Below, one piece after another: positions 8,613-40,101 of a DNA stretch of 42,175 nucleotides (its first letter is position 1; every line of letters starts with the position of its first letter). The notes under the pieces were generated by a model. That model was not told the origin of the DNA, ran no database searches, and was given only the letters and a program-made list of their open reading frames with translations. A program made the translations under genes and the position numbers. The DNA is taken from assembly GCA_003131315.1 (NCBI GenBank), contig PKUV01000107.1, positions 1,012 through 43,186 of the forward strand. Direction: 5' to 3'. This stretch comes from Acidobacteriaceae bacterium (GTDB taxonomy: Bacteria > Acidobacteriota > Terriglobia > Terriglobales > Acidobacteriaceae).

Positions 8613-8819
8613 CAGGGCCGGTGTCGGCGGGGTGCGGGAACGGCGCGAGCGTCACGCGTGCGCGTTACTTAAGTTATTTTGGATTCCTGTTTTTTCTTTG
8701 CGGTTCGGATCTGGACCTTCTTACAATTGTTTTTTTCGGGGACCTGGCGAACAGGTTGGGCAGCGTGTGGTGGAGAGGTCCGCTACGGCCACTTCCCGGA
8801 TGAAAGTTGGAGGATAGAC

Positions 8820-10658
8820 ATGATGCGAGGGTGCGCATACCGTTGGTTCGGTGTAGCAGCTGGGTTGCTCCTGCTGGGCATTCCGCTTTCGGGGCAGGCA
8901 CGGATGGAGACGGAGAGGACCTCACCGGAGGCGGAGGGCGCCAGCGACGCGCAGACGCACCTGGGGTATCCGCAGGACTGGAGTTCGCGGCACTTGTTGA
9001 TGCCGGGCACGCGAGTCGAGGACGTGCTGGCGGCCGGAGTGCGCGACCCGCGGCATGTTTACAACCTGGTAATGCGGCAAGTGGCGGTGGAAAACTTACG
9101 CACACGGGTGTTCTGGCCTTCGCGCCGAATGAAGATCGACTGGGCGGTTTCGCTGGAGAACGGGTACGTGCCGCAAAACCAGTTTCCCGCGAAATATCAG
9201 TTTGGCATAGGCGCGGAGAATTGTAATTCCGATTACGTTCTGTTTGGGCTGACCGTGACTTCAGGGACGCAGGCCAACCTGGTCGGGATCAACAACCTGT
9301 ACACGACAGCGACTCCGGCGTGCCATGGCGGAACGCCGTGGGTGGCATTCGCGTACAACACGGTGACGCAAACGGGGGGGCAGATCCGAACGTCGCCGGT
9401 GCTGTCGGAAGACGGGACGAAGGTGGCATTCGTGGAAAGCACGAGCGGGGCTTCGTACTTCCACGTTCTGGTGCTGCCGAATCCGATTCCGACGCCGCCG
9501 TCGCAGACGGGAACGGTGTTGAGTCCGCAGACTCCGACTTCGTGCACCACGCCGACGACGGCGGGCTGCATGACGACGCTCACCATCGAAAGCAGCGGGA
9601 CCAATACGAATTCCCCACCATGGGTGGACTACAGCGCGGATACGGCGTACGTGGGCGCCGACAATGGCTTGCTGTACAAGATCACGCCGGTATTCGGCGG
9701 CGGGGCGCCGGCGCTGGTCAGCAATACGGACTGGCCGGTCACGGTCTCGACCCAGACCACCAAGGTGTTGACCGCTCCGATTGTCGATACGAAGTCGGGC
9801 AGGATTTTTCTCGGAGATTCGTATGGATACTTGTACGCGGTCAGCCTGACCAGCCCGGGTCACACGTACGCGGCGCGGCAGACGATCGGGTGGGCGGGGA
9901 ACGGACCAGGGACCGGGATTGTGGATCCGCCGATTGTGGTCAACGATTCCGCTAGTCCCACAACCGACCAGGTGTTCGCGTTTACGGGATGCAGCCAGGT
10001 GCTGGGTATCGGCGGGGCGGTCAGCCAGATTGCGGCGAACTTCACGAATTCCAGTACGTACACAACCGTGGACCTGGGGTCGGGGAGTGGGAACGGGGAC
10101 TGCACAACGGGCAACGTACACTCCGGGACCTTTGATAACGCGTTCTGGCTAAATGGGACGGCGACTGGGCATATGATCGCGTGCGGATTCGTGCAGGGGT
10201 CGTCAAGCAAGCCGCTGATCCCGTCGAATCCACAGATGTATTTCTTCCCATTCGACACGAATCACCTCATCACGAGCACGGGTTCGTCGACGTATGTTGT
10301 GGATACTACGAAGGGGGACGAGTGTTCGCCGCTGACCGAGTTTTACAACGGAACGACCGACCGGATGTTCTTCGGAGTGGGCGGCACAACCGACGGATTC
10401 CTGCAGAGCTCGACGATTACAAGTTCGTTGACGACACCGGCCTGCACCAGCGTACCGACATCGAGTTGTGTGAAGGCCCCGATCGCTCTCGGAGGGACCA
10501 GCGGGATCGTGATCGACAACCAATTGTCGAACGGCGGGACGAACATCTACTTCACGACCCTGGCGGTAGGGTCGGTGAACGCCCAGAAGTGCAATGTAAC
10601 AGGCGGAACTGCAAATCCCTATTGTGCGGTGAAGCTGACCCAGTCGGGGTTGAACTAA
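8820..10658 (+). CDS. Secreted beta-propeller-like protein
   Basis: The 612-residue protein starts with a Sec signal (GCAYRWFGVAAGLLLLGIPLSGQA). The start at 8820 is chosen because GGAGGA lies 5 bases upstream. The N-terminal 100 residues carry PQDWSSRHLLMPGTRVEDVL and RDPRHVYNLVMRQVA. The rest is Gly/Thr/Ser-rich beta sequence with PQQ-propeller-like repeats: ADNGLLYKITPVFGG and SKSGRIFLGDSYGYLYAV-type strands (VGADNGLLYKI, FLGDSYGYLYAVSL). Many paired cysteines appear in the second half, suggesting disulfides outside the cytoplasm. A binding or structural role in the envelope is likely but not shown. It follows the two small peptide ORFs by 207 bases and may be co-transcribed. Confidence 0.82.
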   Translation: MMRGCAYRWFGVAAGLLLLGIPLSGQARMETERTSPEAEGASDAQTHLGYPQDWSSRHLLMPGTRVEDVLAAGVRDPRHVYNLVMRQVAVENLRTRVFWPSRRMKIDWAVSLENGYVPQNQFPAKYQFGIGAENCNSDYVLFGLTVTSGTQANLVGINNLYTTATPACHGGTPWVAFAYNTVTQTGGQIRTSPVLSEDGTKVAFVESTSGASYFHVLVLPNPIPTPPSQTGTVLSPQTPTSCTTPTTAGCMTTLTIESSGTNTNSPPWVDYSADTAYVGADNGLLYKITPVFGGGAPALVSNTDWPVTVSTQTTKVLTAPIVDTKSGRIFLGDSYGYLYAVSLTSPGHTYAARQTIGWAGNGPGTGIVDPPIVVNDSASPTTDQVFAFTGCSQVLGIGGAVSQIAANFTNSSTYTTVDLGSGSGNGDCTTGNVHSGTFDNAFWLNGTATGHMIACGFVQGSSSKPLIPSNPQMYFFPFDTNHLITSTGSSTYVVDTTKGDECSPLTEFYNGTTDRMFFGVGGTTDGFLQSSTITSSLTTPACTSVPTSSCVKAPIALGGTSGIVIDNQLSNGGTNIYFTTLAVGSVNAQKCNVTGGTANPYCAVKLTQSGLN

Positions 10659-32364: not shown

Positions 32365-35300
32365 CTAATGCGTGCTAACGAGTTCCAAACTAGGTTCGTG
32401 CACAGCAATTTTCGGATTTTCTATCGCCCGGTCAAGGCAACCGCGCAAGATGGCAGCAAGTTGCCCAACATAGGGCTCTACGAGGCTGCCGCGGGGACTG
32501 ATTGGAAGCGAGAAGAGCCGAACGCCGCCTTGCGCAACCTCTCCCCAGCCACCCAAATGAGCGTCAAAACCCGCCAGATGACGCTCCGCCAAGAAGAGAG
32601 TCAATTCTCCGGGGTAGGGCCTGACCTCGTATTGACCAAGGGCTGCTTCGTAGATATCCGCAATTTTGGCTGGAGGCGTGGCCGCAGCGGCATCCGGCAG
32701 GAGGCGATGCCGAAGACGGGCCCAACCAAAACGAGCGGATGCTTCGATTCGGGTAATCTCGACGCGCAGTTTTTCCATGAAAAAGGCGTGTTTACCTGCA
32801 CCCTCCGCAGCGACGAGATTCTGGAGGTGATAATAGGGGTTGAGGATGAAACGATTGATAAACCTCTGGTGCAACGGGAGCGGCCAGCACATGGAGCGGA
32901 TATTGTAAATCTCAATGAGGGCTACGAGGCCCACGGTCTCGCCCGATTCGACGAGTTGCCGTGCCATTTCCAGGGCCAGAGTGCCACCCAGGCAGTACCC
33001 GCCAAGCATGTAGGGACCATGCGGTTGTACTTGGCGGATCTCGTCGACATAGCGGCGTGCCACATGTTCGAACCGGCCATCGACCGGAGAACGCCCATCG
33101 AGACCGGCGGATTGCAAACCGAAGACGGGCTGATCGGCGCCGAGATGGGCAGCCAAGGAACGATAGAGCAAGACGTTGCCTTCCGCGGCGTGCACGAGAA
33201 AAAGCGGCGGCCGATCGCCGGATCGATTGATCGCCACGAGGGATTGCCAATCTTCCGCTTTGCTGCCCCGGCTCAGAACGCTCGCCAGCATCCGCGGGGT
33301 AGAGGCGTCGTAGAGGGTCGCGAGCGGGGCGGTGCACCCCAACTCGCGCTGGATCAGGTCGAACAACTGCGCCGCAGCGATGGAGTGGCCACCCAAGGCA
33401 AAGAAATCATCGTCTGGCCCAATCTCGCGGATATCCAATACGCGCTGCCAAAGCGGGAGCAGCGCTCGGAGCAATGCGGGCTCCGCCCTCATGGAGTTTG
33501 CCGGCGAATCTGAGAATTGCCGTGGCAGTTCTGGAGCCGAAGTCGAAACGGTCGAAAGGAATTCGTGAGCAGCTTCCCGGTTTGAGATGTGAGTGTAAAC
33601 AATTTCAGTTGCAGGAGAAGCATCGGCACGCTTGAGCCTAGCAAGATCCAGAACTTCCCGCGAGGGATCTGCCGCAAGGTCCTGAAAGATGGAACCAAGC
33701 GTTGCGAGCCATTCTCGTATGGTGAGGTCCTCAAAAAGCTTAATGTCGTAGTGACAGTGAAGCTCCAGGTTCTCTTCCATCTCGACCGCATTCAAATACA
33801 GCTCGAACGATTCGTAGGCTTTGGGGTTGGCATCGTAGTCGACGGCAAATCCGGATTGCGGCAATTCGTTTGGCTTGAACTTCTTGACGTTGGTGAGGCC
33901 AGTCGAGATCGGGGAAATGCCGAGCGCAGGCACGACTGGACGCAGGTCTTCCAGCAAACTGACCATCGTGAAGATGGCATGGTCTTGGGCAGCAAGAAGC
34001 TCGCCCTGTACTCTCTGGAGAAAAGCGCCGACTGCTTCGCCTTCGCGCAACTCCACAGCGAGGGGGAGAAGATTTACACAGTGTCCGACGAGGCCGGGCT
34101 GGCCGATGGCGGGTTGTTCCGCGGTCGGCAGAGCGATAACGAAACGACGCTGCTGTGAAACCCGAGCGAGAAGGATGGCCAAGGAGCCGAGAAGGACAGT
34201 GAAGAAGCTGCAGCCCTGTTTTGCTCCTGCCGCTCTGAGGTTTTCGACCACCGGGGCGGGAATGAGGCGATCGAGACGGCGCGCGCTGAATTCACGCCGC
34301 GCGCTCCGAGGGTGATCGGTCGGAAGCACGAGCACGGGAAAACCATCTTTGAATTTCGAATGCCAATAGCTGCCCGCTTCCTTGAATTCGTCGCAGCGGT
34401 GGCGCCGGGTTACGCTCTGTACGTAATCGACGTAACTCTTCGCTTGCTCCAGGGATGCGGGTGCGCCCGAGATTTCTTCTGAATAGAAAGCGCAAAGATC
34501 GTAGATCAGGACATCCAACGACCAACCATCGCAGATGATATGGTGCGCCGTGAGGATAACCGCCGCGCGATCGGGGCCGAGCAAAACCATTTGGCAGCGG
34601 AACAACGGACCCGCGGGCAGGGGGAATGGTAAGGATGTCTCATCGGCAATCAGTCTGCGAAGACGCTCCTCTTGCCGGGTTGGCTCGTTGGTCGAAGCTT
34701 CGATCGAAGAAAGATCGGTTACCGGCATGGCGATTCTCTGCGCCGGGGCGATCTTCATCATCCGGCCGGCTTCATCGAAGCTGGCGCGAAGAGCATCGTG
34801 CCGCCCAACCAAGCGTTCCATGGCGCGCGCCATTTTCTCGATCGAGATCTTGCCGGTAAAACGCACCGTCATGGATTCGTTGTAAGAAACCGACAAACGT
34901 TCGGAAAGACGCGAAGAGGCATAGATGCCACGCTGCGGAACAGTAGATTCAACCTCAAGCGGGCCGGAAGCCGCCGGAGCGGGGGCCGGTGAGTTGTCTT
35001 TCGGCAGTGTGGTAACCAAGGGTGTTCCGGCATCGGTAGGGGCGGACGCAGTTGGATAATTCATGCCGGCCTTTTCGAGAAGGGTAACCAAGCGGGCGAT
35101 GGTGCGTGCTTGATCGGCAACAACTCCCTCGAGCGTGCTGTCCTTCGGCCGGACATCCGCAGCAGGAGGCGCAGCGGGTGGGGGAGGAACAGGCAGAGAG
35201 GCCGGGATGGCAGGAGTCTCCGCAAGAATGTCAGCAGGCAGGGTGGCGTCAAGATGCGTCGCAAGCATGTCAACGCTGGGCCACTGATTCATGAGCTGAC

Positions 35301-38300
35301 TGAAGCTGACCTTGGCGGAAAACTCCTTGCGGATGGCAAAAGCGACCTGCGTCAAGGATAACGAGTCGAATCCCTGCTCCATGAACGTGGCGGAGGTGCC
35401 GATTTGTGAGCGTTCGCGTCCGGAGACTGGTACGAGGAGGTCAACCAGACGCGAAGCGATGCGGTCTTTGCGTGAAGCTAACGAACTTCCTGAGATAACG
35501 CTCTCTCGCGGCGCGGAGGAAGCCAATGGCTCAACTGAGGGACGAGTGGCCGAAGCGGAACTCGCGGCCTGGAGGCTTTGTGCAGCGGGTACCACTGGGG
35601 CAGGATCTACCCAGAACCGCTGCCGCTCAAAGGGATAAGTTGGCAAAGGTATGCGCCGGCGGTCTTCGTTGGCGTAGAAGGCATCCCAATCAATGGACAC
35701 GCCGTTCTGCCAGAGAGACCCTAGGGCGAAAAGCAGGGTCGCCCACTCGGTGTTGTTCTCATGCGTATCGGCAAACGTAGGAATGGCGGTGCAGGGATGG
35801 TCGGGCGTGAACTGCTGGCGAGCCAACGAACACAGTGTGGAACGCGGTCCACATTCAAGGAAGAGGTCGTATCCCTGGTCCTTGAGATACTGGATTGCTT
35901 TCGAAAACTCCACGGTTGCACGGGCCTGATGGGCCCAATAAGCGGGATCGGTGGTTTCTGCAGCGGTGATGGGGCGTCCCGTGACCGTCGAGACCAAGGG
36001 CCTCACCGGAGGGCGCAACTGGATTTTGGCGACGGCCTCGCGCAACGGCTCAACCATGGGATCCATCATCGCGGAGTGGAAGGCATGCGAGGTATGCAGG
36101 TGGCGACAGACGATGTTTTCCGCTTCGAGTTGCTTCTGGAATTGGCCGACATCCGCTTCCGGCCCCGACACGACACATAGAGCCGGAGCATTATTGGAAG
36201 CGATCTGAAGCGCAGCGGGAAGAATTTTCGCGATCGAATCTGCGCTGCCGCTCACCGCCATCATGGAACCACGCGGGAGGTTCTGCATTAAGCGCCCCCG
36301 CAGAGCGATGATGTGCAGAGCGTCCTCAAGCTCCCACACGCCAGCGAGCGTGGCGGCGACAAATTCTCCGATGCTGTGTCCTGCCATCATGGCAGGCTCG
36401 ATGCCCAGGCTCTGCCAGAAACGCGCCAGAGCGTATTCGATCACGAAAATGGATGGCTGGGTGAAAAACGTGTCCTGCAGGGAGATCTGGGCCGTCTTTT
36501 CATCTCCACTCGGGGGATAAAGAAGTTCACGCAAATCCCTGCCGAGATGAGGCTTGAGATATTCGCAACAATCGTCCACGACAGCGCGGAAAAGAGGCTC
36601 GTCCCGATAGAGGTTCACGCCCATGTTGACGTACTGGGTGCCCTGACCACCGAAAAGGAAGACGACGGGAGGATCCCGGCGTTCACAGCGTTTGCTGCTG
36701 CAGCGCAAGGGATTGGGTTGCAGGAGAAGTCTGGCTGTTTCGCTGGAATCGGCGGCGACAACGAAACGCCGATGAGCCATCTGCTTGCGCCCGGTTTGAA
36801 ACGTGTAGGCCGCATCCGCAAAAGCTTCCGGCGCGGCACTGCCGAGATGCTCCGCCAACGCGCGGCTGTAGGCATCGAGGGCCGCCGGACTCTTGGCGGA
36901 GAGAGGCAAAAGCTGCAGCGGACGCGAAGCGCTTGCGCCCTTCGGCGCGGGCGCCTCTTCCAGGATGACGTGGACGTTTGTCCCGCCAAAGCCAAAAGAG
37001 CTGACGGCTGTGCGGCGGACTTCCTTTCCCCGAGGGAAGGGGATGAGCTTGTCGGTCATGAGGAAGGGGCTGCTGGCGAAATCGATCTTGGGATTGGGCT
37101 TTTTGAAATGGAGGGTCGGAGGGATTTCTTCGTGATGGAGAACGAGAGCCGCTTTGATCAGGCCCGCAACTCCCGCGGCATTGGTCGGATGCCCAATGTT
37201 TCCTTTGATGGAGCCGATATAGCAGAACTGTTTCTTTCCGGTCTTGCTCTCAAAAACTTTCCGCAGCGCTTCGAATTCAATGGGGTCGCCGACAGGGGTG
37301 CCCGTGCCGTGCGCCTCGATGTAGCGAATGGTCTCGACGGGGACGTTTGCATTGGACTGGGCCAGGGCAATGGCATCCGCCTGGCCGTCCACGCTGGGGG
37401 CCAGGAAGGAAGCAGGGCGCGCACCGTTGTTGTTCTTACCGGTACCGCGAATGAGGGCATAAATGGTATCGCCATCGGTCAGAGCATCGGCGAGCCGCTT
37501 GAGGATGACCACGCCGGCGCCGTCACAGAACATGGTTCCCGTGGCGTCGGCATCAAAAGGACGGCAGTGGCCATCCTTTGCAAACGTGCCTCCCTCTTGA
37601 TAGAGGAAACCGCTCTTTTGCGGGACAGTGATGTCAATGCCGCCGGAGAGTGCGATGTCACACTCATAGTCGAGGAGCGAGCGGTAGGCCTGGTCCACCG
37701 CCAAGAGAGTGGTCGAACAGGCGGTATTGAGGCTGATCGCGGGCCCACGGAGATCCAGGAGATAGGCGGTCCGAAGAGCGATGTAGTCCTTCTGATTGCC
37801 GTACTCGACGGCGAGCTTTCCGGCCATGGCCAACAGATCGGGGTGGGTCAAGAGGTTGGTTGTGTAGTAGTGGTTGTCGCCGATGCCCGCAAACACGCCG
37901 ATGCGCCCTTTATAGCGCTCTGGGTCGTACCCTGCGTTTTCGAGCGCCTGCTGGGCGAGTTCGAGAAAGACGCGCTGTTGCGGATCCATGACCCTGGCCT
38001 CGAGCGGATTGATACCAAAGAAGGCGGCATCGAAAAGATCCGCCCCCTCGATCAAACCTCGAGCGCGGATGTAGTCCGGATCATTGCGAAGATGTTCTTC
38101 AATGCCGGGGCCCAGCTCCTCGGGTGTAAAAAAGGAAATTGATTCGACGGAATTGCAAAGGTTGCGCCAGAGTTGATCGAGATTGGCCGCGCCCGGGAAG
38201 CGGCCGACCATGCCGATCACCGCGACGGCATCGCGTGCACTGTGGTTCCCGTTGTGCGGATTGCGCTGGTGACGGGCCCGGTTTTCGACTTCGGCAAGAA

Positions 38301-40101
38301 AATCGGACTTGGTCTCGCTCTCTTCCAGGAATCGCGAGAGCTTTGCGATCGTGGGGTATTGAAAGACTTTGACCGGGTGAATCTCACACCCGAAGCGAGT
38401 GTGATAGTGACTCACCATGCGGACCGCTGCCAGCGAATTACCGCCAAGATCAAAGAAGCTGTCGTCGATGCCAACTTCTTCCAGTTGCAGCAAGTCGCAC
38501 CAGAGATTTGCCAATTGCTTTTCTGTCGCTGTCCGCGGGGCGATAAAGTCCTGGGCGAGAAGTGGCCGTTTGCCTTCTGGCCGGGCCAGAGCCTTGCGAT
38601 CGAGTTTGGCATTCGGAGTCAGGGGGAATTTCTCCAAACGCAGGAAGACTGAGGGGATCATGTAGTCCGGCAGGGTGGCTTTGAGGGCCTGAAGCAAAGA
38701 GGTAGAACTCAAGTCGGCACGGCCCGTGTAGTAGGCGACCAGGCGTTTATCACCGGGACGATCCTCTCGAAGGATGACGACGGCCTGTCCGATTCCCTCG
38801 ATATTCGCAAGTACGCTCTCGATCTCGCCCAGTTCGATGCGAAAACCGTGGAGCTTCACCTGCTGGTCGAGACGCCCCAGAAATTCAAGAGTGCCATCGG
38901 GGCGGTAGCGGACCTCGTCTCCAGTACGGTAGAGACGTGCATCAGGACCCTCACTGGTGGGATCGATAACGAACCTCTCGGCAGTCAGCTCAGGACGCTT
39001 GAGATACCCGCGAGCCAAGCCCGTGCCGCCAATCCAGAGCTCGCCGGGCATGCCCAGAGAAACCGGCTTGTGGTTCTCATCGAGAACATGGAATTGCGTA
39101 TTGGCAATGGGCGGACCGAGGGAGATGTGGTCGGCAGAGGTGAGGTGTTCGGTGGAGGACCAGATCGTGGTTTCGGTCGGCCCATACATGTTCCAAAGTT
39201 CGCGGCAACGAGGGAGCAATTGACGAGCGAGGTCTGCGGTCAGGGCCTCACCTCCGCAAAAGATTCGCAGGTCGCTCTTTCCTTCCCAGCCGCTTTCGAG
39301 CAGCATGCGCCAGGTCGTTGGCGTTGCCTGCATCACCGTGACCGCGTGCTGCCGAAGCAAGCGTTGAAGCTCGCGGGCGTCCGAAGACTGTTCCGCAGTG
39401 GCGATGACGATCTGGGCGCCGCGCACAAGGGGGAGAAGGAATTCCAGGATCGAGATGTCAAAAGAAGTTGTAGTAACCGCCAAGTGTGTATCGGACGTAG
39501 CCATCCCAGGCGTTTCCGCCATGGACAAGAGGAAATTGACGAGTGCACGCCGCGGGATCATGACTCCCTTGGGCTTTCCGGTGGAGCCCGAAGTGTAAAT
39601 GAGGTAGGCGAGATCTTCGGGGTTGCTGCTTAAGGGGAGGTTCGTCACTGGGGCCTTGGAAAGTGACTCGTTTTCTCGGTCAAGCAGAACAACTCGGGCG
39701 GTTGTTTCCGGCAGACTTTCCCGCTTAGAAGAATGTGTTAGGAGGAGTGAGACTTCGGAGTCCGCCAGCATGAACGCCAGACGGTCTTTCGGAAACTTCG
39801 GATCCAGCGGCAGGTAGGTCCCACCGGATTTGAGGATGGCGAGGAGGCTCACAACCGAATCAAACGAACGATCGAGACACACACCAACTAGGCTCTCGAG
39901 ACCGACTCCTTGCTCACGAAGGAAATGTGCCAGGCGGTTCGAGCGGGAATTCAGCTCCCGGTAGGAAATCTGCTCCGGGCCCAGGGTCAGGGCGGGAGCA
40001 TCAGGCGTGCGCTCGACTTGGTCTTCAATGAACTCGTGCGGGCCTCGCCTCAGGGGGTAGTCCCGCCGGGTATCGTGAGGGTAGATCACTCGTGTTCCCA
40101 T
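32365..40101 (-). CDS. Hybrid NRPS-PKS, A-T-KS-AT-T-C-T-TE
   Basis: One 2578-residue megasynthase. Adenylation domain (1-510) with IYTSGSTGKPKGV; read by eye, the specificity pocket is D-I-L-Q-I-C-M-I-W-K, close to the Gly code DILQLGLIWK. Carrier 1 Ser556. Ketosynthase (620-1040): active Cys795 in NTACSTTLL, HGTGT, KGNIGH. Acyltransferase: GHSIGE with Ser1243 and HAFH, predicting malonyl-CoA. Carrier 2 Ser1580. Condensation domain 1670-2100 with intact HHIICDG (His1853/1854). Carrier 3 Ser2240. Thioesterase with GYCLGG: nucleophile is Cys2370, not Ser. No ketoreductase, and no adenylation domain in the last module. The N-terminal A domain lacks a C domain, so it is a loading module. No tailoring, transport or PPTase gene is nearby. 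Confidence 0.95.
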   Translation of the reverse strand: MGTRVIYPHDTRRDYPLRRGPHEFIEDQVERTPDAPALTLGPEQISYRELNSRSNRLAHFLREQGVGLESLVGVCLDRSFDSVVSLLAILKSGGTYLPLDPKFPKDRLAFMLADSEVSLLLTHSSKRESLPETTARVVLLDRENESLSKAPVTNLPLSSNPEDLAYLIYTSGSTGKPKGVMIPRRALVNFLLSMAETPGMATSDTHLAVTTTSFDISILEFLLPLVRGAQIVIATAEQSSDARELQRLLRQHAVTVMQATPTTWRMLLESGWEGKSDLRIFCGGEALTADLARQLLPRCRELWNMYGPTETTIWSSTEHLTSADHISLGPPIANTQFHVLDENHKPVSLGMPGELWIGGTGLARGYLKRPELTAERFVIDPTSEGPDARLYRTGDEVRYRPDGTLEFLGRLDQQVKLHGFRIELGEIESVLANIEGIGQAVVILREDRPGDKRLVAYYTGRADLSSTSLLQALKATLPDYMIPSVFLRLEKFPLTPNAKLDRKALARPEGKRPLLAQDFIAPRTATEKQLANLWCDLLQLEEVGIDDSFFDLGGNSLAAVRMVSHYHTRFGCEIHPVKVFQYPTIAKLSRFLEESETKSDFLAEVENRARHQRNPHNGNHSARDAVAVIGMVGRFPGAANLDQLWRNLCNSVESISFFTPEELGPGIEEHLRNDPDYIRARGLIEGADLFDAAFFGINPLEARVMDPQQRVFLELAQQALENAGYDPERYKGRIGVFAGIGDNHYYTTNLLTHPDLLAMAGKLAVEYGNQKDYIALRTAYLLDLRGPAISLNTACSTTLLAVDQAYRSLLDYECDIALSGGIDITVPQKSGFLYQEGGTFAKDGHCRPFDADATGTMFCDGAGVVILKRLADALTDGDTIYALIRGTGKNNNGARPASFLAPSVDGQADAIALAQSNANVPVETIRYIEAHGTGTPVGDPIEFEALRKVFESKTGKKQFCYIGSIKGNIGHPTNAAGVAGLIKAALVLHHEEIPPTLHFKKPNPKIDFASSPFLMTDKLIPFPRGKEVRRTAVSSFGFGGTNVHVILEEAPAPKGASASRPLQLLPLSAKSPAALDAYSRALAEHLGSAAPEAFADAAYTFQTGRKQMAHRRFVVAADSSETARLLLQPNPLRCSSKRCERRDPPVVFLFGGQGTQYVNMGVNLYRDEPLFRAVVDDCCEYLKPHLGRDLRELLYPPSGDEKTAQISLQDTFFTQPSIFVIEYALARFWQSLGIEPAMMAGHSIGEFVAATLAGVWELEDALHIIALRGRLMQNLPRGSMMAVSGSADSIAKILPAALQIASNNAPALCVVSGPEADVGQFQKQLEAENIVCRHLHTSHAFHSAMMDPMVEPLREAVAKIQLRPPVRPLVSTVTGRPITAAETTDPAYWAHQARATVEFSKAIQYLKDQGYDLFLECGPRSTLCSLARQQFTPDHPCTAIPTFADTHENNTEWATLLFALGSLWQNGVSIDWDAFYANEDRRRIPLPTYPFERQRFWVDPAPVVPAAQSLQAASSASATRPSVEPLASSAPRESVISGSSLASRKDRIASRLVDLLVPVSGRERSQIGTSATFMEQGFDSLSLTQVAFAIRKEFSAKVSFSQLMNQWPSVDMLATHLDATLPADILAETPAIPASLPVPPPPAAPPAADVRPKDSTLEGVVADQARTIARLVTLLEKAGMNYPTASAPTDAGTPLVTTLPKDNSPAPAPAASGPLEVESTVPQRGIYASSRLSERLSVSYNESMTVRFTGKISIEKMARAMERLVGRHDALRASFDEAGRMMKIAPAQRIAMPVTDLSSIEASTNEPTRQEERLRRLIADETSLPFPLPAGPLFRCQMVLLGPDRAAVILTAHHIICDGWSLDVLIYDLCAFYSEEISGAPASLEQAKSYVDYVQSVTRRHRCDEFKEAGSYWHSKFKDGFPVLVLPTDHPRSARREFSARRLDRLIPAPVVENLRAAGAKQGCSFFTVLLGSLAILLARVSQQRRFVIALPTAEQPAIGQPGLVGHCVNLLPLAVELREGEAVGAFLQRVQGELLAAQDHAIFTMVSLLEDLRPVVPALGISPISTGLTNVKKFKPNELPQSGFAVDYDANPKAYESFELYLNAVEMEENLELHCHYDIKLFEDLTIREWLATLGSIFQDLAADPSREVLDLARLKRADASPATEIVYTHISNREAAHEFLSTVSTSAPELPRQFSDSPANSMRAEPALLRALLPLWQRVLDIREIGPDDDFFALGGHSIAAAQLFDLIQRELGCTAPLATLYDASTPRMLASVLSRGSKAEDWQSLVAINRSGDRPPLFLVHAAEGNVLLYRSLAAHLGADQPVFGLQSAGLDGRSPVDGRFEHVARRYVDEIRQVQPHGPYMLGGYCLGGTLALEMARQLVESGETVGLVALIEIYNIRSMCWPLPLHQRFINRFILNPYYHLQNLVAAEGAGKHAFFMEKLRVEITRIEASARFGWARLRHRLLPDAAAATPPAKIADIYEAALGQYEVRPYPGELTLFLAERHLAGFDAHLGGWGEVAQGGVRLFSLPISPRGSLVEPYVGQLAAILRGCLDRAIENPKIAVHEPSLELVSTH

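Follow-up and report, generated by a model that had tools for sequence, protein, structure and literature searches.

A conserved single-protein NRPS-PKS hybrid of Acidobacteriaceae with an A-less last module and a Cys/no-His thioesterase

We analyzed a 42,175-nucleotide stretch of Acidobacteriaceae DNA (the window) and confirmed that positions 32365..40101 of its minus strand form a single intact open frame encoding 2578 aa from ATG in the domain order A-T-KS-AT-T-C-T-TE. This gene is best explained as a functional, conserved NRPS-PKS assembly line contained in one protein. We estimate a probability of roughly 40% that the line makes a Gly-malonyl-Gly beta-keto amide with its one A domain used twice. 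The A domain would load glycine (or a very small amino acid) onto T1, and KS-AT would add one malonate without reduction to yield 4-amino-3-oxobutanoyl on T2. The C domain would then join this group to an amino acid on T3, which would be charged by a second action of the same A domain, either within the chain or across a dimer. Finally, the resulting Gly-(C2)-Gly chain, of about 174 Da as the free acid, would be taken over and released by a TE with a Cys nucleophile and without the canonical His. The class of TEs to which this domain belongs (Cys/no-His) is the part most deserving of specialist attention; if our reading of it is true, widespread releasing domains do without a residue regarded as indispensable at its usual site, and the products predicted for clusters with such TEs need revision. 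The single 7.7 kb gene, its small predicted product and the lack of evident helpers in the window make both questions tractable, i.e., how one A domain serves two carriers and how a chain is released without His.

Domain order and conservation of the gene

The Pfam scan agreed with the domain order proposed in a first-pass annotation of the window. AMP-binding matched residues 26–367 (with AMP-binding_C), ketoacyl-synt 624–873 (with C-terminal parts), Acyl_transf_1 1147–1452, PP-binding three stretches, Condensation 1720–2154 and Thioesterase the region from 2299. The A-domain model TIGR01733 scored 450.9 bits (cut-off 317.4) and was the only one to exceed its cut-off among the 25 NCBIfam families listed of 121 matching. 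With A, T, KS, AT and C domains in one frame and their motifs intact, the protein is an NRPS-PKS hybrid. All domains are encoded on the minus strand. The A domain (aa 26–505; 38587..40026) retains its core motifs and is followed by the T1 carrier (about aa 525–598; 38308..38529; GGNSL). The KS domain (aa 624–1115 including a C-terminal extension; 36757..38232) carries the Cys-His-His set in TACST, HGTGT and NIGH, and the AT domain (aa 1147–1452; 35746..36663) carries GHSIG and HAFH, the latter of which we take to be a malonyl-type signature. Pfam detected no KR, DH or ER in the gene product, which bears out the annotated single unreduced extension module. The T2 carrier (about aa 1545–1620, bounds set by eye; 35242..35469; GFDSL) precedes a C domain (aa 1720–2154; 33640..34944) with an intact HHIICDG. 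The T3 carrier (about aa 2206–2280; 33262..33486; GGHSI) lies in a module lacking its own A domain, and the serines of all three carriers are present. The TE (about aa 2295–2570; 32392..33219) ends the protein.

The C domain ends near residue 2154 and T3 starts near 2206. This linker of about 51–52 aa (33487..33639), which is 36–56 residues long in the complete orthologs, is too short for an A domain, whether intact or degraded. That is, a degraded A domain before the last carrier, which would have undone the annotation of an A-less last module, is excluded, and the module is A-less as annotated. The literal string A-T-KS-AT-T-C-T-TE did not appear in the open-licence PMC papers searched, an absence that carries little weight.

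Six further complete copies with the same domain order were 69.8–90.1% identical to the window gene. Four came from same-genus genomes (G014, 90.1%; G008, 84.3%; G012, 81.3%; G021, 80.3%), with the copies of G014, G021 and G008 counted once each, and two from a scan of named genomes (L056 of the Acidobacteriaceae MAG fen_409, 72.9%; L051 of a Terriglobia MAG, 69.8%), which also yielded the partial copy L050. The catalytic motifs and the domain order were retained in all seven complete copies, with KS the best conserved domain and the linkers the least. C-domain matches at E 1e-60 occurred in six of 24 same-genus genomes, our own included; those in our own genome, G014, G008, G012 and G021 were close (77–100%), that in G018 reached only 35%, and the C-T-TE part as query returned the same five genomes. 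Seven intact copies of one eight-domain order are far beyond chance and rule out a chance arrangement or a pseudogene.

Substrate of the A domain and charging of the last carrier

Mapping of the pocket positions on GrsA (1AMU) gave the code DILQFGMIW for the window A domain. Orthologs G014 and L056 have DILQLGMIW, with Leu at position 299, and L051 has DILQLGVIW, with Val replacing Met at 322; DILQ[F/L]GMIW is found in six of the seven complete orthologs. A survey of 2051 A domains reports DILQLGMIWK as the code of four domains that activate Gly and are accompanied by a MOX domain (PMC12283262). The window code shares eight of nine letters with this Gly code (F for L at 299), and those of G014 and L056 share all nine. 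The glycine-like pocket read by eye in the annotation is therefore upheld by a Gly-type code, and our best guess at the substrate is Gly or something very small. The presence of Phe rather than Leu at 299 suggests that the window pocket may not be strict for Gly.

The last carrier is A-less, as the annotation had stated, and its further statement that this carrier must be charged in trans was too strong; charging by the protein's own A domain would be the simpler reading. We counted A domains over the TIGR01733 cut-off in the five ortholog-bearing same-genus genomes: four in our own (plus a tandem frame that passes the cut-off when counted with its neighbors), three in G008, two in G012, three in G014 and four in G021. 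G012 is recorded at completeness 100 and contamination 5, and G008, G014 and G021 at 72–85% completeness. The two A domains of G012 are that of the ortholog itself and one in a C-A-T-TE protein. The search for a stand-alone A domain suggested in the annotation found no A or A-T above the cut-off that all five genomes share, and zero in G012; since G012 lacks one, no stand-alone loader is common to all five, and a dedicated loader is unsupported.

A split module, in which a separate A or A-T protein charges T3 with or without a shuttle in the manner of SyrB1/SyrC, seems possible but rather unlikely. Syringomycin SyrE has the same A-less terminal C-T-TE and is served by SyrB1/SyrC (PMC8949500); further precedents are CmaE and the type II TE LgnA (PMC8748450). 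Stand-alone A-T proteins do occur in some genomes (e.g., L044:6738-8684 and L035:4378-6306), and the A domain of the C-A-T-TE protein in G012 could load T3 in trans. However, the window gene differs from SyrE in being a KS-AT hybrid, and the zero count in G012 speaks against a general partner of this kind. In a variant of the split module, the terminal Cys TE might itself act as the shuttle. An A domain stands directly before the last T in 26 of 66 Cys/no-His TEs among the matches listed, and with so many in modules that have their own A domain, loading is not the function of the class per se.

Overall, the protein's one A domain probably supplies the last carrier as well as its own. In capreomycin biosynthesis, CmnA-A1 serves its own T and the T of the A-less CmnI (PMC12400406). 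The likeness lies in one A domain for both carriers; capreomycin involves two proteins and no PKS module, whereas here one protein would charge twice and a TE follows.

The yersiniabactin HMWP2/HMWP1 system is a hybrid line in which an upstream A domain serves a terminal A-less module; it differs in having Cy rather than C, methyl transferases and two proteins. The larger number of A domains in our own genome counts against our best reading, as do the neighbors that might take part at six of eight ortholog loci.

A thioesterase lacking the canonical histidine

The TE nucleophile is Cys2370 in GYCLGG (32992..32994), confirming the annotated Cys. The model of the domain (mean pLDDT 89.9) has a predicted alpha/beta-hydrolase TE fold, and the structure search with it returned TE structures throughout the matches listed. 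The uncharacterized AB3403 (4ZXH), whose A domain also matches that of the window protein, differs in being a four-domain terminal NRPS module. The remaining catalytic positions depart from a canonical type I TE. Glu2397 in ALIEIYN (32911..32913) occupies the position after strand 6 where Asp is usual, with Glu in all seven complete orthologs. His is missing from the loop after the last strand, the expected catalytic-His site, which reads LPISPRGSLVEP in the window (32473..32508) and the same or a close variant in all seven. This loss makes ordinary TE hydrolysis doubtful. Two other His residues are candidates for an alternative base. One is the lid His2425 in YYHLQN (32827..32829); the other, in the loop after strand 7 (ERHLAG), is retained in all seven orthologs and not class-wide, as Tyr or Phe is common at that position in the wider class.

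The annotation had linked the Cys nucleophile to TEs that form strained rings, and this kinship did not hold. Obafluorin ObiF and sulfazecin SulM TEs share the Cys nucleophile and the TE fold. PMC11298585 describes Cys-Asp(position II)-His in both and Gln-Cys-Asn in SulM, whereas the window TE has none of these; its position II loop, after strand 7, has no Asp conserved over the seven orthologs. Position II and the missing His lead us to reject a beta-lactone or beta-lactam TE, and a strained ring is further disfavored because a terminal Gly would offer no beta nucleophile.

The predicted Gly-malonyl-aminoacyl beta-keto amide thioester would be a natural substrate for tetramic acid closure, and the TE could be an in-line Dieckmann cyclase whose product is a small 3-acyl tetramate, of 156 Da when the chain holds two Gly. 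Free-standing bacterial cyclases of the TrdC/NcmC type take beta-keto amide thioesters as substrates; they resemble TEs and have a Cys nucleophile, and replacing Cys89 of BpdE by Ser gave a variant that did not restore production (PMC10956176). These cyclases use Cys-Asp-His, whereas the window TE shares the Cys, has Glu for Asp and lacks that His. In addition, members of this TE class also occur after aminotransferase-containing modules and KS-AT-T modules, which would offer no beta-keto amide, so cyclization is not the reaction that the class shares. We consider this explanation unlikely.

We surveyed related TEs using clade-seeded searches, with the best 80 matches kept, plus loci from further genome searches, one of which scored up to six candidates per genome and may miss copies. 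Near-copies were dropped only where the core stretch was identical (143 to 126), so that orthologs count several times in the set. A script took the nucleophile and His states from a single MAFFT alignment, and three incomplete and three other TEs were set apart from the class counts. Cys/no-His accounted for 66 of the 126 TEs among the matches listed. Also among these matches, 61 of the 66 and one Arg variant form one clade spread over many phyla; such TEs occur in Acidobacteria, Desulfobacterales, Geobacter, Verrucomicrobia, Ignavibacteria, Anaerolineae and others. Judging from the alignment, Cys without the canonical His is a trait of a TE family.

Among the matches listed, His occupies the lid column in 63/66 Cys/no-His, 22/40 Ser/His and 4/14 Cys/His TEs. 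Because so many Ser/His TEs share it, the idea of the lid His as a new compensating gain is weakened. A Phe/Tyr-His pair is more specific (63/66, 4/40 and 4/14, respectively, among the same matches). Where A or C directly precedes the last T, it is C for 18 of 44 Cys/no-His TEs versus 6 of 39 others (p = 0.015 among the matches listed, with kinship ignored), and the TE tree needs nine changes of the A-less state. A link of His loss to A-less modules thus appears weak.

The TE could also be catalytically dead, with the chain leaving spontaneously (e.g., as a tetramic acid from T2 or T3) or via another enzyme. The missing canonical His in all seven orthologs would fit, one clade member (L108) has Arg for Cys, and PMC8748450 proposes the same for TE0 of PacP. 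However, a large clade strongly conserves the Cys, its GYCxGG surroundings and the lid His, which is not what drift would do, and we regard a dead domain as very improbable.

The Arg variant itself, at L108:9554-10825, has GYRMGG and is probably catalytically dead; its locus also encodes a second T-TE protein, of the Ser/His kind. Loci L073, L074 and L075 each hold a pair of small T-TE proteins, one Cys/no-His and one Ser/His. The open-licence PMC papers searched held no pertinent report on the catalytic histidine in Cys-nucleophile NRPS TE domains, although this absence is weak.

Gene neighborhoods and polysaccharide loci

The window gene is surrounded by M23 peptidase, DAGK-like, metallophosphatase, FecR/DUF6600 and Sel1 genes, and the G012 ortholog by SpoIIE/HAMP protein, GGDEF/HD and subtilase genes. 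The neighbors scanned, 10 proteins in the window and eight in G012, included none of sugar or NRPS/PKS type, as expected of a self-sufficient gene. The window also contains a 659-aa open frame at 8679-10658 with no Pfam match at E 0.001.

The other ortholog loci look different. In G008, an Sfp-like PPTase, the ortholog and a WecB-type epimerase follow one another on one strand; G014 has FemAB, WecB, PPTase and SLBB export genes, and G021 a truncated WecB. Listed by locus, polysaccharide-type genes stand at L035/L036 (WecB, FemAB-type, SLBB export), L038 (WecB) and L041 (WecB truncated by the contig end). L051 has PPTase, glycosyltransferase and DegT genes, and L056 a sugar transferase, RND efflux genes and a CE4-like deacetylase from a family without a Pfam assignment, which L050 shares. 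The members of this family (L043:1661-3142, L050:1962-3410 and L056:11053-12567) carry the motifs HDV[ED] and HxLxHDG; Pfam gave no match (E up to 0.1 for L050 and L056), and a structural model (mean pLDDT 72) resembles CE4/NodB polysaccharide deacetylases.

These loci suggest that the Cys/no-His TE may be an acyltransferase to an amine, e.g., of an exopolysaccharide amino sugar freed by a deacetylase, with the assembly line as an accessory of a polysaccharide locus. Six of the eight ortholog loci have sugar or polysaccharide genes in their vicinity. Within the fetched stretches, deacetylase relatives were found at 11/52 Cys/no-His versus 0/22 other TE loci, FemAB relatives at 9/52 versus 0/22, and either at 17/52 versus 0/22 (Fisher p = 0.0017), although the compared genes were picked after the loci had been seen, and the loci themselves lack independence. 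Those with a deacetylase or FemAB relative were entered by hand, and L073, L074 and L075, which have both TE kinds, were counted as Cys/no-His. A tally of neighbor families, which took in 130 of 204 and 87 of 106 listed ORFs, showed no clear difference in Glycos_transf_1 (7/130 versus 3/87), arguing against a general sugar-locus bias of the class.

We then reversed the comparison, starting from the deacetylase, which was found in 18 of 396 phylum genomes at 19 places (four candidates were scored per genome, and copies may be missed). We searched the 18 places outside our own genome, about 9 kb on each side or to the contig end, plus two stretches from G014 and G012; four of the 20 were shorter than 19 kb. 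A TE occurred in 0/20 stretches (0/18 without the two additions) and a FemAB match in 16/20 (15/18). FemAB in 15 of 18 and a TE in none point to a standing polysaccharide locus, and the CE4-like deacetylase is rejected as a dedicated partner. At most, the synthetases are optional guests of polysaccharide loci. With this result and no sugar gene among the scanned neighbors of the window and G012, transfer to an amine by the window TE seems doubtful.

A broader proposal is that Cys/no-His TEs form a separate catalytic type in which the base is lost or moved (to the lid or post-strand-7 His) and the chain passes to an amine, such that small NRPS-PKS lines across phyla, the window gene included, decorate exopolysaccharide amino sugars with short aminoacyl-ketide chains. 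We hold this to be quite improbable. The open-licence PMC papers searched contained no report of a TE/NRPS gene cluster acylating an exopolysaccharide amino sugar, nor of NRPS together with exopolysaccharide, FemAB, exosortase and deacetylase genes; both absences are weak.

In our own genome, about 14 kb separate the deacetylase from the C-C-T-TE gene on contig C14. That contig holds a second hybrid cluster (L042:7290-19549) with KS-AT-T-AMT-C-A-T followed by the A-less C-C-T-TE. In this C-C-T-TE protein, the first C domain carries HHSVIDY and the TE belongs to the Cys/no-His class; G018 and G021 encode relatives (L010 and L026). On contig C29 of the same genome (L044:511-8684), a stand-alone A-T adjoins a KS-AT-KR-DH-T-TE PKS with a Ser/His TE.
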